Virus record (IMG/VR): IMGVR_UViG_3300021197_001916
Span: 1 to 23,093 of that record
Length of the DNA stretch: 23,093 nt
From: a virus
Direction: 5' to 3' (one strand)
In this document: one piece after another, positions 5,302 to 23,093 of the stretch
Numbering within the stretch: the stretch's first letter is position 1
How the letters are laid out: every line of letters starts with the position of its first letter
Made by a program: the position numbers and the translations under genes
Notes under the pieces: model-generated
What the model was told of the DNA's origin: nothing
The model's database searches: none
Seen by the model: only the letters and a program-made list of their open reading frames with translations

Positions 5302-5308
5302 TAAATAG
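5302..5308 (-). promoter_or_regulatory. CTATTTA element between the ribosome site and ATG of the tube gene
   Basis: The sense strand reads AGGAGACTATTTAAATG, so the element fills the 9-base spacer between AGGAG and the start codon. At this position a sense-strand -10 box would start transcription inside the gene and lose the ribosome site. This copy therefore argues for an RNA-level role or for chance. Confidence 0.35.
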
Positions 5309-8347: not shown

Positions 8348-8364
8348 TAAATAGTGTTAAATAG
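8348..8364 (-). promoter_or_regulatory. Two CTATTTA elements upstream of the sheath gene
   Basis: Sense copies of CTATTTA lie at 8364-8358 and 8354-8348, 10 bases (one helical turn) apart, within GACTATTTAACACTATTTAC. The first is preceded by an inverted repeat AATAGT/ACTATT (8360-8380) that overlaps the gp15 stop. The sheath ATG is at 8309. A double copy before one of the most abundant virion proteins is suggestive of a promoter role. Confidence 0.5.
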
Positions 8365-9324: not shown

Positions 9325-10587
9325 CTATCCTACAAAAATGCCGGCAGGAATATTTTCTGTGACTTTCTTAGTCGAGTCTTGGAGTGTCGCGTCAACGGCG
9401 GCGAGATTCGCATAAGTTGTCTCGTCGAGGATAGTTTTCAACTCATTTCTCAGATTGTCCTGCTCTGTTCGGGCTTGCCCTAACAATTCGCTAGCATTAA
9501 GTGTTACACTTTCACCAGGGATCGGCACAGTCGAGAACTTACCGCGTACCTGCCCTAACATCTCCTTAGTCAGTGCCAACGCAAACCGGCGGATCCACTG
9601 CTTACCTATAGAGTTAATATTCTCATAAGGGATATTTTCAAATGGTAGTGTATTAAGGTTATTGATTCCCATTACTCCATTTTCGCCGCGGCCAGTTTCA
9701 TCCCATGGTTCATACTGATTCTCAATTGTGAACTGAACCCAAAAGTTCGCGGGGCTAGTCCTGTCTGGATTGGGGAAAATCCTCAACATATTATCCTTAA
9801 TCTCATAAGAATAGTGTGAGACTCGGGTATAAAGCGCATCCTCGTATGCCATCGCCTGTAGCTTGTTCTGCCATGTCGGAACAATCTCAAAAGTAGAATC
9901 GTCCGCATACTGCCCATAAGTTCGCATGTTGCCAACCACAGAAAATCCGCCATAATATCCGTAAAAGCGCCACATTGCGCGTGGAGTTCTGAAGAATACT
10001 TTTCGTACAGTAACTCTCTTATCTTTAATTTGCTCGTAGTAGGGAACCGTAGAATCAGTAGCCGCTGAAGAGGAGAGGATCGCCTGAAGATCATAATCTT
10101 GCGTACCCGGCACCATGGGGACGGACCCTGAGTAGATAGGGAGGGTGCCATTGATATTTGCTTCTGTGCTTATTCCCTCTACTACTCTCTTCACATAACC
10201 GTATTCATAGCGTGGATATCTTAAGGCTATGTTCGATCCCGATAGCGAGCCCGTGATCGTACCATCTTGGTCGAAGGATCCCGTGCTGCTGCCCAGGTAC
10301 GAGGATAGAGCATTCTTGGACTGATGCAGATTTACTAAATAGGAATATTCTAATACAGCTTCCTCATATGCTGCATAGACGTTCCCTTCGGACAACTCAA
10401 TATCTAATACGTCGCCTCCGAGCTTCTTATAGGTATAGGCTACCTGATCGGCTGCTCCCGAGAGGAAGAAGTCCGAAGAATCATACATCCCAAAAGGCAG
10501 TGTCGCAGCTACGTTAAGTACACTACCGGTGGCTGGCAAAATGTTGGCGTTGGATGTTGAAGCAGGGTAAAGTTTAGGGATTGCCAT
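9325..10587 (-). CDS. gp13: Neck protein, gp13-like
   Basis: The product is 420 aa (T4 gp13 is 309), starting at ATG with GAGGA upstream. Gp13 works with gp14 to seal the DNA-filled head and present the tail-binding neck. The family signs are the N-terminal helix KKLGGDVLDIELSEGNVYAA with EEAVLEY (compare the LGxPVxDxExxDEQIxxxxxxALxxY pattern), central aromatic strands (AMWRFYGYYGG), an NMLRIFPNP turn, and the C-terminal WIRRFALALTKEMLGQVRGK, then VPIPGESVTLNASELLGQA followed by a long helix. The extra length lies near residues 95-165, in Ser/Gly-rich loops. It ends 4 bases before the gp15-like start, so the two are translationally coupled. Confidence 0.85.
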   Translation of the reverse strand: MAIPKLYPASTSNANILPATGSVLNVAATLPFGMYDSSDFFLSGAADQVAYTYKKLGGDVLDIELSEGNVYAAYEEAVLEYSYLVNLHQSKNALSSYLGSSTGSFDQDGTITGSLSGSNIALRYPRYEYGYVKRVVEGISTEANINGTLPIYSGSVPMVPGTQDYDLQAILSSSAATDSTVPYYEQIKDKRVTVRKVFFRTPRAMWRFYGYYGGFSVVGNMRTYGQYADDSTFEIVPTWQNKLQAMAYEDALYTRVSHYSYEIKDNMLRIFPNPDRTSPANFWVQFTIENQYEPWDETGRGENGVMGINNLNTLPFENIPYENINSIGKQWIRRFALALTKEMLGQVRGKFSTVPIPGESVTLNASELLGQARTEQDNLRNELKTILDETTYANLAAVDATLQDSTKKVTENIPAGIFVG

Positions 10588-10613: not shown

Positions 10614-10620
10614 TAAATAG
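10614..10620 (-). promoter_or_regulatory. CTATTTA element between the capsid terminator and gp13
   Basis: The sense strand reads CTTTCTATTTAGTAATAG. The element abuts the terminator stem, and CTATT/AATAG can pair as a small hairpin. It lies 27 bases upstream of the gp13 ATG. One of the recurrent CTATTTA copies. Confidence 0.45.
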
Positions 10621-10678: not shown

Positions 10679-12487
10679 TTAGCCAGTCACTACATCCTTG
10701 CAGATAACCAGTCCGTACATATCTGGACGAACCATCTTCTTGGCGTATCGGGTCATGACACCCTTACGAGGTACGAAGTCCTCTACACCGAAGATAGTAG
10801 GTGTGGTCTGCAGCGGCACATAAGGTGCATACACATAACCACTCTCAAGGAAGGAACTTCCGCGGCGACCAACGAGGATCACGTTACGCATGAAGTATGG
10901 ATCGACAAAGATGTCGAGCTTCTTCGAGAGGGAACCAACCTTAACAGCACCCGCGTCGCCACGGTCGCTATCAGCAGTCACGTTAGCACGGAAGCCAGCA
11001 GTGAACTCAAGGATGTTGGCAACTTCAGGTCCGCAGACGATGAAGTTAGCAGCACCACGCAGAGTCTTGCGGTGGATCTGTGCGGAGACGTCATTGATGG
11101 ACTCAATGAGTGTCTCATACCATTCGCTCACGTTACCTGTGAACTCGCCACCAGAGGCGACTGCACCTGTCTCGCGATTCAGGAACTCACCTGGGGAGCG
11201 CGACCAGTAACGAGTACCGGCTGCAGCACCTGCGACGAGGTCCTCAAGGATCTCACGATCAATCTCAAGAGCGATCTGCTCAGACAGAATCTGAGTAAGC
11301 TCGACCTCTGCATCCAGGTTGTGGTATGCGTTAAGGTCTTGACCCAACTCAGGAGTCCACTTAGCCTTCAGCTTCTTGGTGATAGCTGTGACAGCCACGG
11401 AATCAACCTTAATGTCGATCTCGGGGATGTCAACGTTGTTCTCAAGACCCCAGTCGGTAGTACCTTCAACAGCACCAAGAGCCGAAGCGTCCTGGAAGTT
11501 GTCGTCGATGGCGAAGGTGATCTTGCAATCTCGGACCGAAGCAGAGAGGACACCAGGGTTGGAACCATTGGTCGAAACAAAGACAGCGCGGACAACTTCT
11601 CGGTTGACCGTGCCGGGATCACTAAGGGACCGGCTCAGCTGGCTGAGTCGTGGAACGAGTACAGCGACGCCGCTAGCAAGGTTAGAAGCCATGGCAGTGA
11701 GATCATCCTGGTTAAACTGCGTGGAAGCAGAGAGACCAAGCTCAGCAATAACGAAGCTGGAACCAGATGTGAGATCTGGATCGTAGCGAAGCAACTGAGT
11801 AGCGTTCAGAACGCTGAAGTTCGGGGCAAGGTTATTTGCGCCGCCCGGACCACCAGTGCTCCAGCCGCCGGCGGTACCGCGTGGCATGTCTGCCGTGCCG
11901 ATGCACTCGCCAAGAGCACCAATGGTGCCTGAGCCAATAACTGTGATACCTTTATTGTCTGTAGCAACCGACGGGTCAAGTGTACCAGTCGGAGACGAGT
12001 AACCGTTACGCAAGTTGTAAGGACCGTTTGCAACGGTACCCTCGCCACCGGCGAGATCAACACCACCAGTGATCTGGGAACCAACAACATTACCACCATA
12101 AAGCGATGTGTTCTCGTTGAAACCAAGACGGTTGGCGTTGGTCAGCGTACCACCAAACTCAAAATCAAGGAAGAAGATGAGGCCGGAAGGCAAGCTCATG
12201 GGCTGAACGGAAACGAGTTCGTTTGCGATCAGGTTGCCGAATACTCGGCGTACAAGTGGGAATGCAACTGCTGCAAAACCCTGGACGTCACCAGCAGACA
12301 TGCTGGAAGACTCACGGAGCAGCTCTTTTGCTTGGTTTTCAAGCAAACGTGCCATTCCATTCCGAACGGTATCGTCACCGAGACCCTCAAGAAGACCTGT
12401 CTGTTCCCACTTATTAATGAGAGCAGCACCTTCAGCTGAGAGATCACGATTTACGATGCCTTCGGTCAATTTCTCGACGATAGACAT
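10679..12487 (-). CDS. gp23: Major capsid protein, gp23-like
   Basis: The product is 602 aa (T4 gp23 is 521), starting at ATG after a strong AGGAGG. It forms the hexamers of the head shell. Diagnostic segments are KWEQTGLLEGLGD (26-38), ARLLENQAKELL (46-57), and FPLVRRVFGNLIANELVSVQ (76-95), followed by PSGLIFFLDFEFG. The region 106-200 is longer and Gly/Asn-rich compared with T4 and may be a surface insertion. Later LKAKWTPELGQDL, EILSEQIALEIDREIL-type helices and the C-terminal PRKGVMTRYAKKMVRPDMYG also fit. A probable prohead protease site, LLRE followed by SSSM, lies after residue 59, close to the known T4 cut after residue 65. A strong terminator follows, as expected for the most abundant late transcript. 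Confidence 0.95.
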   Translation of the reverse strand: MSIVEKLTEGIVNRDLSAEGAALINKWEQTGLLEGLGDDTVRNGMARLLENQAKELLRESSSMSAGDVQGFAAVAFPLVRRVFGNLIANELVSVQPMSLPSGLIFFLDFEFGGTLTNANRLGFNENTSLYGGNVVGSQITGGVDLAGGEGTVANGPYNLRNGYSSPTGTLDPSVATDNKGITVIGSGTIGALGECIGTADMPRGTAGGWSTGGPGGANNLAPNFSVLNATQLLRYDPDLTSGSSFVIAELGLSASTQFNQDDLTAMASNLASGVAVLVPRLSQLSRSLSDPGTVNREVVRAVFVSTNGSNPGVLSASVRDCKITFAIDDNFQDASALGAVEGTTDWGLENNVDIPEIDIKVDSVAVTAITKKLKAKWTPELGQDLNAYHNLDAEVELTQILSEQIALEIDREILEDLVAGAAAGTRYWSRSPGEFLNRETGAVASGGEFTGNVSEWYETLIESINDVSAQIHRKTLRGAANFIVCGPEVANILEFTAGFRANVTADSDRGDAGAVKVGSLSKKLDIFVDPYFMRNVILVGRRGSSFLESGYVYAPYVPLQTTPTIFGVEDFVPRKGVMTRYAKKMVRPDMYGLVICKDVVTG

Positions 12488-13672: not shown

Positions 13673-13679
13673 TAAATAG
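13673..13679 (-). promoter_or_regulatory. CTATTTA element upstream of the scaffold gene
   Basis: The sense strand reads GGACTATTTATTTC. It lies 34 bases upstream of the scaffold ATG and directly before an inverted repeat. One of the recurrent CTATTTA copies. Confidence 0.45.
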
Positions 13680-17210: not shown

Positions 17211-17219
17211 TATAAATAG
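17211..17219 (-). promoter_or_regulatory. CTATTTATA element upstream of the 884-aa fibre gene
   Basis: The sense strand reads CTATTTATA; the plus strand reads TATAAATAG, which contains the exact T4 late promoter octamer, but pointing away from the genes. It stands between the terminator and the AGGAG of the 884-aa gene. It belongs to the recurrent CTATTTA set. Whether it is a promoter, and in which direction, cannot be decided from sequence alone. Confidence 0.45.
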
Positions 17220-20067: not shown

Positions 20068-21606
20068 TTAGTAAATGAACCAGTTTGTTCCGTCTGAATA
20101 CATAAAGACAGAACCGTACGGGGATTCAATAATAGCAGTGGATAAACCGTCTATAGTCTGCGAGGCTGACGGCATAAGAGTTATCGCATTTGTAGCGTTA
20201 GCGGCGCCGCTCTCATCCTTGATCACAAGTCCCTGTCCATCGGAGAATAAAGTAGCATCAAACAAGATTTCTGTAGGGACCGCAGTGATACCCAGAATAT
20301 AATTACTCACAGAGGCAGTGTGTCGTGTAGAAACAGCTGTTCGATTAAAGGTGAGTCCACCTCCAAAAGAAAGCCGGTTATTGGATATGTCATAGAGGAC
20401 CTGACTGCTGCCACTGATCTCACCTGTTTCTGGTGTATTGACCCTAAACTGCAAAGATCCAACAGGACCGTCTGCCACTGTAGTGGCACTGGCTGTGATG
20501 TTTGTTAGGTATCGTCCGTCGCCGTAGAAGTACGATGATGATACAAAAAGAGATGCACTGACGTCTCCCGTTTGCACACATGAGCCGGAGATTGTTAACT
20601 CGCCATCGCCATTCGGGGCGAATTCGCCCACTTGCGATCCGAATTGGTTCACTATTGAGAGTCCGCCCGAAATCTTCAGAGGTGACCCTCCAACAACAAC
20701 TCCCCTAACCGTGAGGTCGCCGCCGATAAGAACATCTGAGGAGGCTGACATATTCCCCGCCACTGTTAGGTTGTGGGTCGGGGTGTCAGTGCCTATCCCC
20801 AGTCGGCCGCTTCCGCTTAGGAACACTAAGTTACTGTTTCCGGCAAAGGAGCCCCCGCCATGTTGGAGCTGTACTGCACCGGCGATTCCTTGGGCATTAG
20901 CACCAGCTGCGTCGATCGTAATAGTATTGTTGGGTCCGCCATCTGTTATAGTGATACCTGTTCCAGCGGTAAGCACCCGCTCGTTTGGAAGCTTGCTGTC
21001 AGGGTTCACCGTTACATAGCTAGCTGCTAATGGAGGATAAGGAGCTGGGCGCGGGGCTGGATTGTCTTGTTCGCCGGCTTGTTCAGCAAGCGTAGTTGGA
21101 CGGTCGACTGCTGGCATGACCCGGAAGGTGCCTTTGCGAGCGCGCACACATTCTGTTGCGATCTGGAATTTGTGTTCTACCTGTCCGAAGTAGTATCGAG
21201 TATCTTCAAAGATCTTGACAATCTCATAAAAGAATTCGCCATATTGAATAAAGTCGCCGACGCGGACATAAAGGTTCTGATCCTCTGTAATACGTCGCTC
21301 GCTAAAATAAACCTTAAGTTTTGTCTGATATTCATATCCAAACTTTTCATTGCTTTGGGCGTTCGTAACGTCAACGTATGCATATACGCGTACAGGAGGT
21401 AGGGAGACTTTCTCAATAGCTTCACCATATGTTTGGTTAAAGTTAGATTCTTCAGTGCTTATAGGATAGTAAGCAATTGGTTGCCCGATGACCCTTTCAG
21501 AAAGTTCATCGTTGATCTGCTTTACTAAGTCTCGTTCTTTTTTGCCAAAAAACATTGGCGCCGGTGGGGCCAATGGGCGTGTCCATTTATCCTTTGGGTC
21601 TGCCAT
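20068..21606 (-). CDS. Gp14-like neck domain fused to a fibre-like C-terminal region
   Basis: The product is 512 aa. Residues 1-163 are a close paralogue of the preceding 171-aa protein. Residues 165-195 are a Pro-rich linker (NPAPRPAPYPPL). Residues 200-512 are Gly/Ser/Thr-rich fibre sequence, including LGIGTDTPTHNLTVAG (269-284), a YGDGRYLTNITASATTVADG module (361-380) also present in the 884-aa fibre, and a terminal TIDGLST...ESPYGSV...WFIY tip (484-512) also present in the 862-aa fibre. The start ATG lies 12 bases after the previous stop, with AGGGGG as its ribosome signal. If the first domain sits in the neck, the rest would project as a collar or whisker-like appendage; T4 achieves whiskers with the unrelated fibritin. 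The neck placement is inference. Confidence 0.65.
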   Translation of the reverse strand: MADPKDKWTRPLAPPAPMFFGKKERDLVKQINDELSERVIGQPIAYYPISTEESNFNQTYGEAIEKVSLPPVRVYAYVDVTNAQSNEKFGYEYQTKLKVYFSERRITEDQNLYVRVGDFIQYGEFFYEIVKIFEDTRYYFGQVEHKFQIATECVRARKGTFRVMPAVDRPTTLAEQAGEQDNPAPRPAPYPPLAASYVTVNPDSKLPNERVLTAGTGITITDGGPNNTITIDAAGANAQGIAGAVQLQHGGGSFAGNSNLVFLSGSGRLGIGTDTPTHNLTVAGNMSASSDVLIGGDLTVRGVVVGGSPLKISGGLSIVNQFGSQVGEFAPNGDGELTISGSCVQTGDVSASLFVSSSYFYGDGRYLTNITASATTVADGPVGSLQFRVNTPETGEISGSSQVLYDISNNRLSFGGGLTFNRTAVSTRHTASVSNYILGITAVPTEILFDATLFSDGQGLVIKDESGAANATNAITLMPSASQTIDGLSTAIIESPYGSVFMYSDGTNWFIY

Positions 21607-22134
21607 TCATCGTGCCCCCTATGATGGTCTCGTGGGGGATTGCTTTACCTTAAAGACTCCCTCACGCGAGCGGATACATTCGGCAGCAATCTGGAACTTG
21701 TGTTCTACTTGTCCAAAGTAGTACCGAGTGTCATCATATGTACGTGCGATTTCATAAAAAACCTCTCCGTACTGAATAAAATCTCCAACACGGACATAAA
21801 GATCCTGGTCAGCTGTGATTCGTTTTTCACTAAAATAGATTACTAAACTGGTTTGATAGTCATAACCAAATTTCTCATTGGTCTGTTCATTGTCCACCTG
21901 AACATAGGCATACACCCGAATCGGTGGTAGTGAGACCTTTTCAATGGCCTCGCCATAGGTCGTATTAAAGTTAGTATCTTCCATGCTTATCGGGTAATAA
22001 GCGATTGGTTGTCCGATGACCCGCTCAGACAGTTCATCATTAACCTGTTTTACTAAGTCCCGCTCTTTTTCCCCGAAGAACATCGGAGGCGGAGGGGCGT
22101 CCGGTTGATTCCATTTGTTTTTTGGATCTGACAT
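21118..22134 (-). repeat. Tandem gene duplication of the gp14-like domain
   Basis: Two copies of a roughly 163-codon unit lie head to tail: 22134-21646 in the short gene and 21606-21118 in the fusion gene. They align over the whole length without gaps and differ mainly by conservative changes (I/V, K/R, D/E). This is a duplication followed by divergence, with a fibre region attached to only one copy. Confidence 0.9.
21619..22134 (-). CDS. Neck (head completion) protein, gp14-like, short paralogue
   Basis: The product is 171 aa, starting at an ATG preceded by AGGAGG. In T4, gp14 joins gp13 to close the filled head and form the surface to which the tail binds. The order of features fits gp14: an N-terminal helix (ERDLVKQVNDELSERV), then AYYPIS (compare YYVPRE in T4 gp14), EKFGYDYQ (compare SNFGMQVQ), then GDFIQYGEVFYEI (compare GDLIYFPMDNSLFEI) and YYFGQVEHKFQI (compare FYQLG). 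There is no gene of this type between the gp13-like and gp15-like genes, where T4 has gene 14, which supports the assignment. About three quarters of residues 1-163 are identical, without gaps, to the N-terminus of the following gene. An alternative is another head-tail connector family with the same fold. Confidence 0.6.
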   Translation of the reverse strand: MSDPKNKWNQPDAPPPPMFFGEKERDLVKQVNDELSERVIGQPIAYYPISMEDTNFNTTYGEAIEKVSLPPIRVYAYVQVDNEQTNEKFGYDYQTSLVIYFSEKRITADQDLYVRVGDFIQYGEVFYEIARTYDDTRYYFGQVEHKFQIAAECIRSREGVFKVKQSPTRPS

Positions 22135-22165: not shown

Positions 22166-22579
22166 TTACCCGACAAGAGCCGCTAAAGATCCAGACCAGT
22201 TAGACCCCGAAGGGGACACTGCGGCATTATTGATACTGGTGGTTTCAATACTGGTGAGTCCAGCTACGACACAAACATAGTCCGAACCGGAAATCCAAAG
22301 TTCGCTCACTTTCAGTTCTAGTTGCCCAGAAGTTTCACTAACTTCAAAAAAGTTGGTGCCAAGAATTCCCTTCTGAGAGAATCCAACCCTCATCGGCTCG
22401 GCGCTTTCGCCGCGACTGTCGCCATTCTGGACCTCAACCCAGCGCGTGACTCGCGGAAAAGTAATACGCTGCTCACCGTGCAGTACGCGGCAGTTAACAC
22501 TCCCAGTCACCCACGGAGCACCGGAGACCTCATACGATGCTGCATTTCCGAGTCCTGGTTTATAATTATAAGTTGACAT
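22166..22579 (-). CDS. Small virion-like beta protein, function unknown
   Basis: The product is 137 aa with no cysteine-rich or catalytic motif. The start is ATG with GGAG 7 bases upstream. The sequence is rich in Ser, Gly, Val and Thr and alternates as expected for a beta sandwich (for example TRWVEVQN, RVGFSQKGILGTNFFEV, LELKVSELWISGSDYV), and it ends with a flexible SPSGSNWSGS tail. I believe similar small proteins recur among uncharacterised structural genes of marine T4-like phages, but that is from memory. Its place between bS21 and the neck paralogues, within a late structural run, supports a virion component such as a head or neck decoration. No specific function is claimed. Confidence 0.7.
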   Translation of the reverse strand: MSTYNYKPGLGNAASYEVSGAPWVTGSVNCRVLHGEQRITFPRVTRWVEVQNGDSRGESAEPMRVGFSQKGILGTNFFEVSETSGQLELKVSELWISGSDYVCVVAGLTSIETTSINNAAVSPSGSNWSGSLAALVG

Positions 22580-22590
22580 TCTTTATCTCC

Positions 22591-22605
22591 GTCTAATAAA
22601 TAGAC
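22591..22605 (-). promoter_or_regulatory. CTATTTA element inside a small inverted repeat
   Basis: On the sense strand the sequence is GTCTA-TTTAT-TAGAC, a perfect 5-bp inverted repeat that contains CTATTTATTA. It stands a few bases upstream of the GGAG that serves the 137-aa gene. It is one of seven intergenic copies of CTATTTA in the window. Function unknown; candidates are a late promoter element or an RNA processing/regulatory site. Confidence 0.45.
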
Positions 22606-22618
22606 GCCACCTGGGCGT
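22604..22618. terminator. Small hairpin between bS21 and the next gene
   Basis: ACGCC and GGCGT form a 5-bp GC-rich stem around ACCTG. On the plus strand it is followed by TTTTAT; on the minus (sense) strand it is followed by CTATTTATTAG. It lies just past the bS21 stop. It may act as a weak terminator or as an mRNA 3'-end stabiliser; the stem is short. Confidence 0.4.
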
Positions 22619-22619
22619 T

Positions 22620-22841
22620 TTATCTAAACAATTTTTGTTGTTTCTTTCTTTCTAGCTTCCGGCGCTCTCGACGGGCAGCCTCAGACTTAAGCTTTTTGCT
22701 TATAGAAGGCTTGATGTAATGATCGGTCTTTGAGCGATATAACTTTACGATGCCTTCCTTTTTACACTTACGATTAAAACGCCGGATTAGTCTCTCGGAT
22801 GTCTCTCCGCGGCGTAGTTCAACTTTCACATTTACTGGCAC
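22620..22841 (-). CDS. rpsU: Phage-encoded ribosomal protein bS21 homologue
   Basis: This is a 73-aa, strongly basic protein. bS21 is a small-subunit protein placed near the anti-Shine-Dalgarno end of 16S rRNA, where it helps messenger selection and initiation. The family pattern is visible: an N-terminal beta strand (VNVKVEL), then ETSERLIRRFNRKCKKEGIV matching the bS21 helix with RRF-K, a short linker ending YIKP, and an Arg/Lys-rich second helix (AARRERRKLERKKQQK). The length is that of cellular bS21 (about 70 aa). The start is GTG, 3 bases after the upstream stop, with a modest AGGT signal. bS21 genes are known in several cultivated and metagenomic phages, including a Pelagibacter myovirus; a role in redirecting host ribosomes to phage late mRNA is inferred, not shown here. 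Confidence 0.88.
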   Translation of the reverse strand: MPVNVKVELRRGETSERLIRRFNRKCKKEGIVKLYRSKTDHYIKPSISKKLKSEAARRERRKLERKKQQKLFR

Positions 22842-22844
22842 AAC

Positions 22845-23093
22845 TTACCTACTTTCTTTCTTTACATTATTCATGTGAGCATTCCAGTTCCTTCCAACAC
22901 TCCCGAACAGGTTTCCAATATCAACACCCGGGTCTGTGGGGTTCTGGCCGGACATTGGGTTTGACTGTTGCGTGGGGGAGGCTTGCGCTGGGGCTGGTGT
23001 AGTGCCCTCAAAGAGATTAACTCCATTGTAGGCTTCTCCACCGATAGCGGACATCAACTTAGTCCGATGCTCCTGAAGCTTGGAGGTTTGTTG
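22845..23093 (-). CDS. Unrecognised protein, 5' end cut by the window edge
   Basis: The frame is open from the right edge of the window to a TAA at 22847-22845, giving at least 82 residues. A TTG/ATG pair inside it (about 23057/23054) could be taken as a start, but the codons upstream of it to the window edge contain no stop and there is no good Shine-Dalgarno, so I read this as the C-terminal part of a longer gene. The visible part is low in hydrophobic residues and rich in Pro, Gln, Asn and Gly in the middle, with a basic tail ending KKESR. No motif points to a function. It stops 3 bases before the GTG start of bS21, so the two are almost certainly co-transcribed and probably translationally coupled. 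Confidence 0.6.
   Translation of the reverse strand, partial: QQTSKLQEHRTKLMSAIGGEAYNGVNLFEGTTPAPAQASPTQQSNPMSGQNPTDPGVDIGNLFGSVGRNWNAHMNNVKKESR

Follow-up and report, generated by a model that had tools for sequence, protein, structure and literature searches.

The bS21 gene and its late structural neighbourhood

We analysed a 23,093-nucleotide stretch of DNA from a marine phage (hereafter the window), in which all genes, chance open reading frames aside, lie on the minus strand. A complete rpsU-like gene is located at 22620..22841 (-), starts with GTG at a place that is homologous in all close relatives, and encodes a protein of 73 amino acids. The product matches Pfam PF01165 with 50.3 bits (cut-off 27), covering positions 2-55 of the 55-position profile, NCBIfam TIGR00030 with 45.4 bits (cut-off 28.95), and PHROG 21469, annotated as ribosomal protein S21. 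With the curated family cut-offs exceeded over the full domain, the profile matches identify the product as a genuine bS21, in agreement with the preliminary description of this DNA, which had recognized a complete bS21 homologue. The AlphaFold2 model, built with 28 phage homologues, is helical with a mean pLDDT of 87.7. When we searched the PDB for similar folds, bS21 or mS21 chains of bacterial, chloroplast or mitochondrial ribosomes occupied ranks 1-14, and the best E-value was only 0.62, a weak value that is expected for a small helical protein. In sequence, the phage protein is 35% identical to the bS21 of E. coli and 34% identical to that of F. johnsoniae; its net charge is +19, compared with +14 in E. 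coli bS21.

The window is a T4-like late cassette containing the gp23 capsid, sheath, tube, baseplate hub, tape measure and wedge genes. The major capsid protein gp23 gene at 10679..12487 (-) matches PF07068 with 249 bits, which fixes the phage as T4-like, and a head-tail adaptor gene was assigned by a profile match at 9325-10587 (-). In addition, the relative L004 encodes an S77 prohead protease (PF03420), and a late-sigma match was detected in a relative, which is weak (phrog_234, 26.9 bits). Judged by its gp23-type capsid, S77 protease and late-sigma match, the phage appears to be a T4-like phage with gp55-type late transcription.

Upstream of bS21, the window contains the C-terminal part of a gene (22845..23093 (-)) that is cut by the window end. 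The protein is about 149 amino acids long in relatives and matches no family; full-length versions are present in L004 (7548-7997), L007 and others, in most cases directly preceded by the prohead protease gene, and in some relatives one extra gene separates the two. The window itself covers only the part downstream of the protease, and the upstream map comes from related contigs, where the order is terminase, portal, several genes without a family, prohead protease (S77), the 149-aa protein and bS21, followed by a 137-aa protein, fibre and baseplate genes, scaffold and capsid. In the window, the conserved gene for the 137-aa protein, which follows bS21 in most loci, lies at 22166..22579 (-); family and profile searches with this gene and the next one (21619-22134 (-)) gave no match to any known family. 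Further downstream are a baseplate-type match at 20068-21606 (-) and long repetitive fibre-like ORFs. The preliminary description had placed bS21 in a late-gene setting, ahead of neck and fibre genes. The late setting is borne out, since bS21 lies among the late structural genes and shares their strand, and the fibre-like ORFs and the baseplate-type match do follow; the neck label is not confirmed for the two next genes, which have no family match, and the head-tail adaptor gene lies elsewhere, at 9325-10587.

Two side observations concern this region. The genes at 21619-22134 and 20068-21606 have N-terminal domains that closely resemble each other (MFFGKKERDLVKQ / MFFGEKERDLVKQ...), which suggests a duplicated gene whose second copy bears a fibre-like extension. 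A bS21 of a different type is encoded in L012 (8001-8114) and L013 (6243-6353); in L012 it immediately precedes the scaffold gene, which looks like an independent case of placement next to head genes.

Fixed position, probable translational coupling and proposed transcription units

We searched viral contigs only, using the 149-aa upstream protein alone as the query, which does not select for bS21, and retrieved 80 loci. A bS21 gene was located within 2 kb downstream of the 149-aa gene, usually adjoining it, in 76 of the 78 loci with enough downstream sequence. Homologues of bS21 were found in more than 80 viral loci altogether, and both sequence and position are kept in about 80 related contigs, mostly metagenomic fragments that are mutually non-independent; a feature conserved to this extent is far beyond chance. 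Each of the 12 long records searched contains exactly one copy. The dN/dS values were 0.014-0.084 in most close pairs for which they could be estimated, with 0.2 in one noisy pair having few changes. Thus, bS21 is a core gene of this T4-like clade that is locked in its position and is under purifying selection.

The stop codon of the upstream gene lies 3 nucleotides before the bS21 start, as had been described, and the corresponding distance ranges from -1 to 9 nucleotides in 43 of the 44 representatives scored. An SD-like motif, AAAGTAGG, lies inside the end of the upstream gene at 22848..22855 (-) and ends 6 nucleotides before the bS21 start. In 17 of 47 representatives, the SD-like sequence AAAGNAGG has its end exactly 6 nucleotides upstream of the bS21 start, while the upstream stop is 3, 7 or 16 nucleotides away. 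Since this distance is constant despite the shifting stop, the motif keeps its place with respect to bS21 and not to the reading frame of the upstream gene. From this arrangement, we infer that bS21 is translationally coupled to the upstream gene. With a 16S tail ending UUUCU, the bS21 SD site of the window pairs at -10.8 and those of relatives reach -14.9, compared with only about -6 for an E. coli-type tail. A Bacteroidia-style extended SD or autoregulation of bS21 is not claimed here, because the pairing depends on the 16S tail assumed and the end of the upstream gene is purine-rich.

When we examined the sequences upstream of genes in four long relatives, CTATTTA was the most enriched 7-mer (25-fold), with 36 occurrences on the coding strand and 2 on the other strand. 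The window contains eight copies compared with 2.4 expected, all on the coding strand, and those upstream of structural genes are found at 22597-22603, 17213-17219, 13673-13679, 10614-10620, 8358-8364, 8348-8354 and 5302-5308, all (-). The motif was found upstream of 27 of the 147 structural genes and of 8 of the 212 other genes (p = 6.6e-6); for sigma70-like sites, the corresponding counts were 0 and 22. Based on these motif statistics, CTATTTA is a candidate late-promoter element of the clade; it differs from the T4 element TATAAATA, and our literature search gave no previous description of it as a late promoter of T4-like phages.

The copy at 22597..22603 (-) lies just behind bS21 and is a candidate late-promoter element of the next (fibre) unit. 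Among 48 representatives, the motif occurs no more than 70 nucleotides after the bS21 stop in 38, with a distance of 15-16 nucleotides in most relatives, and in none of them within the 120 nucleotides before the bS21 start. A terminator-like hairpin, a 5-pair stem followed by CTATTTATT, lies between them at 22604..22618 (-); it is weak (fold z-score -1.7), present in L002 and L004, and absent from more distant relatives. Because the late-promoter-like motif follows bS21 and does not precede it, bS21 seems to close the protease unit, and the simplest reading is that it is the last gene of that unit with a new late unit starting just behind it. The earlier placement of bS21 at the head of a structural gene run is probably wrong.

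The ASD-contact residue, the probable host and the proposed role of phage bS21

In F. johnsoniae bS21, Tyr54 is part of the pocket that hides the ASD (PDB 7jil; PMC9976891); in Bacteroidia, this residue stacks on the ASD region. Among 57 distinct phage bS21 sequences, the corresponding position is Arg in 56 and Lys in one, and the aromatic residue that marks the ASD-blocking bS21 of Bacteroidia is absent from all 57. E. coli bS21 has Lys54 at this position, which is basic like the phage residues.

The host is probably one of the Pseudomonadota, although the evidence is weak. A ferredoxin of one relative scores 123 bits with the proteobacterial FdxA model, below the model's own cut-off of 135, and 68 bits with the actinobacterial one. 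The closest long relative encodes a DnaK that, in the limited collections searched, most resembles the alphaproteobacterial and E. coli proteins. These two genes come from different relatives and neither lies inside the window; taken together with the residue at the Tyr54 position, they point to an SD-using pseudomonadotal host as likely. Among the relatives, G002 encodes an FdxA-type ferredoxin and an IscA/ErpA-type iron-sulfur protein (L096:6834-7151 and L090:194-556) and G001 has a DnaK-like gene (L089:571-2397); G006 contains another IscA-like gene and a GroEL-like gene at 187653-189224, the latter judged by eye. Searching genome contigs for bS21 gave a single bacterial locus, in a Peptococcaceae MAG (44% identity), and plasmid and phage searches with the window bS21 protein gave no matches. 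Flavobacterium phage immuto is among the nearest named capsid and terminase relatives, which prompted the idea of a Bacteroidota host; this host is disfavoured, as immuto has an unrelated 75-aa protein at the place of bS21 and the residue comparison also argues against it.

We favour, with somewhat better than even confidence, an explanation in which a vertically inherited phage bS21 keeps or tunes translation initiation in an SD-using host. Late in infection, the protein would be produced alongside the prohead protease and the 149-aa protein, the timing being suggested by its neighbours and the candidate promoter motif, and it would be translated by coupling to the 149-aa gene. It would then most likely enter host 30S subunits, replacing host bS21 or joining it. 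This step is modelled on published work with another phage, as bS21 of Pelagibacter phage HTVC008M enters E. coli 70S ribosomes (PMC6375957). On phage mRNAs, the resulting ribosomes may keep or tune initiation, presumably in a pseudomonadotal cell. Against this explanation, and against a benefit of phage bS21, stands the finding that ribosomes containing a phage bS21 showed only about 5% of normal translation in the heterologous E. coli in vitro assay of Mizuno 2019 (PMC6375957).

A narrower version, in which stronger SD-ASD pairing through phage bS21 would give late messages with strong SDs an advantage, had been put forward in the preliminary description together with the view that strong SDs argue against a host that ignores them. 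The latter view is partly upheld: phage genes generally pair with the ASD above background, and the ASD-blocking equivalent of Tyr54 is absent. The major capsid protein genes carry the canonical AGGAGGU in all eight representatives scored, and several structural genes pair strongly. However, the median SD strengths of structural and other genes are nearly equal (-6.0 and -5.6 kcal/mol, p = 0.02; 51% and 45%, respectively, at or below -6). Both classes carry noise in this comparison, because the first ATG of each crude ORF call served as the start. Moreover, the terminase, portal and protease genes of the head cassette have weak SDs, and mRNAs of an SD-using host bear SDs too, so that SDs alone give no selectivity. 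A late-specific SD code is therefore not supported, and an SD-based bias towards late messages seems unlikely.

The gene might instead simply supply bS21, replacing an exchangeable or depleted host protein during host shut-off while mRNA preference is unchanged. This agrees with the strong purifying selection on a near-canonical basic bS21, with bS21 belonging to those ribosomal proteins that can move from one ribosome to another (PMC6375957), and with pelagimyophages, which keep bS21 as a core gene without a fixed gene cluster (PMC7029224); it leaves unexplained why the gene is locked beside the protease and 149-aa genes in this clade, and we hold it to be a less probable account, though one to be taken seriously. 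A very improbable alternative is that this basic protein has been repurposed to bind RNA or DNA in the prohead or virion, being made with the protease and packaged; packaging is raised as a possibility by Chen 2022 (PMC9723584). The fixed order after the prohead protease and its 149-aa neighbour and the higher net charge would suit such a protein, but strong purifying selection maintains the bS21 domain in full, which is unexpected for a protein off the ribosome, and no capsid-targeting signal was identified in it. Also quite doubtful is a reading in which bS21 and the 149-aa protein are obligate partners, translationally coupled and linked to head maturation, that jointly switch host ribosomes to virion production; the 149-aa protein or the activity of the protease could then help to displace host bS21.

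Comparison with known phage and bacterial bS21 proteins

Phage bS21 is the commonest viral ribosomal protein (PMC6375957), and phages with bS21, as well as the idea that it substitutes for the host protein late in infection, are already published (Chen 2022, PMC9723584; Mizuno 2019, PMC6375957). Its closeness to prohead protease and neck genes is likewise frequent and already published. The present clade adds three points: bS21 keeps one place throughout, on the strand of its neighbours and apparently coupled to the upstream gene; the residue corresponding to Tyr54 is basic; and CTATTTA is a candidate late-promoter motif. A widespread T4-like clade can thus have a ribosomal protein among its core genes, locked in position, and not as an occasional cargo.

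Pelagibacter phage HTVC008M and the pelagimyophages are, like this clade, marine T4-like myoviruses in which bS21 belongs to the core genes (PMC6375957, PMC7029224), but their bS21 is reported outside any specific gene cluster (PMC7029224), while the position is fixed here. Microcystis phage Mel-JY01 (PP395634) shows the protease, a 154-aa protein, bS21 annotated as RpsU (38% identity) and later the capsid at the corresponding place. A 388-aa hypothetical gene after its bS21 replaces the 137-aa gene and the fibre block, and our comparison detected no relationship between the 154-aa and 149-aa proteins.

Close parallels in gene neighbourhood are the Bacteroidetes phages of Chen 2022 (PMC9723584), myoviruses in which bS21 lies beside TerL, portal, prohead protease and MCP, with a conserved neighbour of no assigned function, and is expressed with late genes, for which ribosome takeover was proposed. 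The gene order of the relatives places bS21 of the present clade within the same region. However, bS21 of those phages lies on the strand opposite to the structural genes, while the window and its relatives have bS21 on the strand of these genes, apparently coupled to the upstream gene. Furthermore, all 61 bS21 proteins of Chen 2022 carry an aromatic residue at the Tyr54 position, which is Arg or Lys here; the phage residue likewise differs from Tyr54 of F. johnsoniae bS21, a member of the same family (PDB 7jil; PMC9976891). The two phage groups thus have the same gene in a similar neighbourhood, with and without the ASD-blocking residue, and comparing them would separate tuning of SD use by bS21 from its simple supply.
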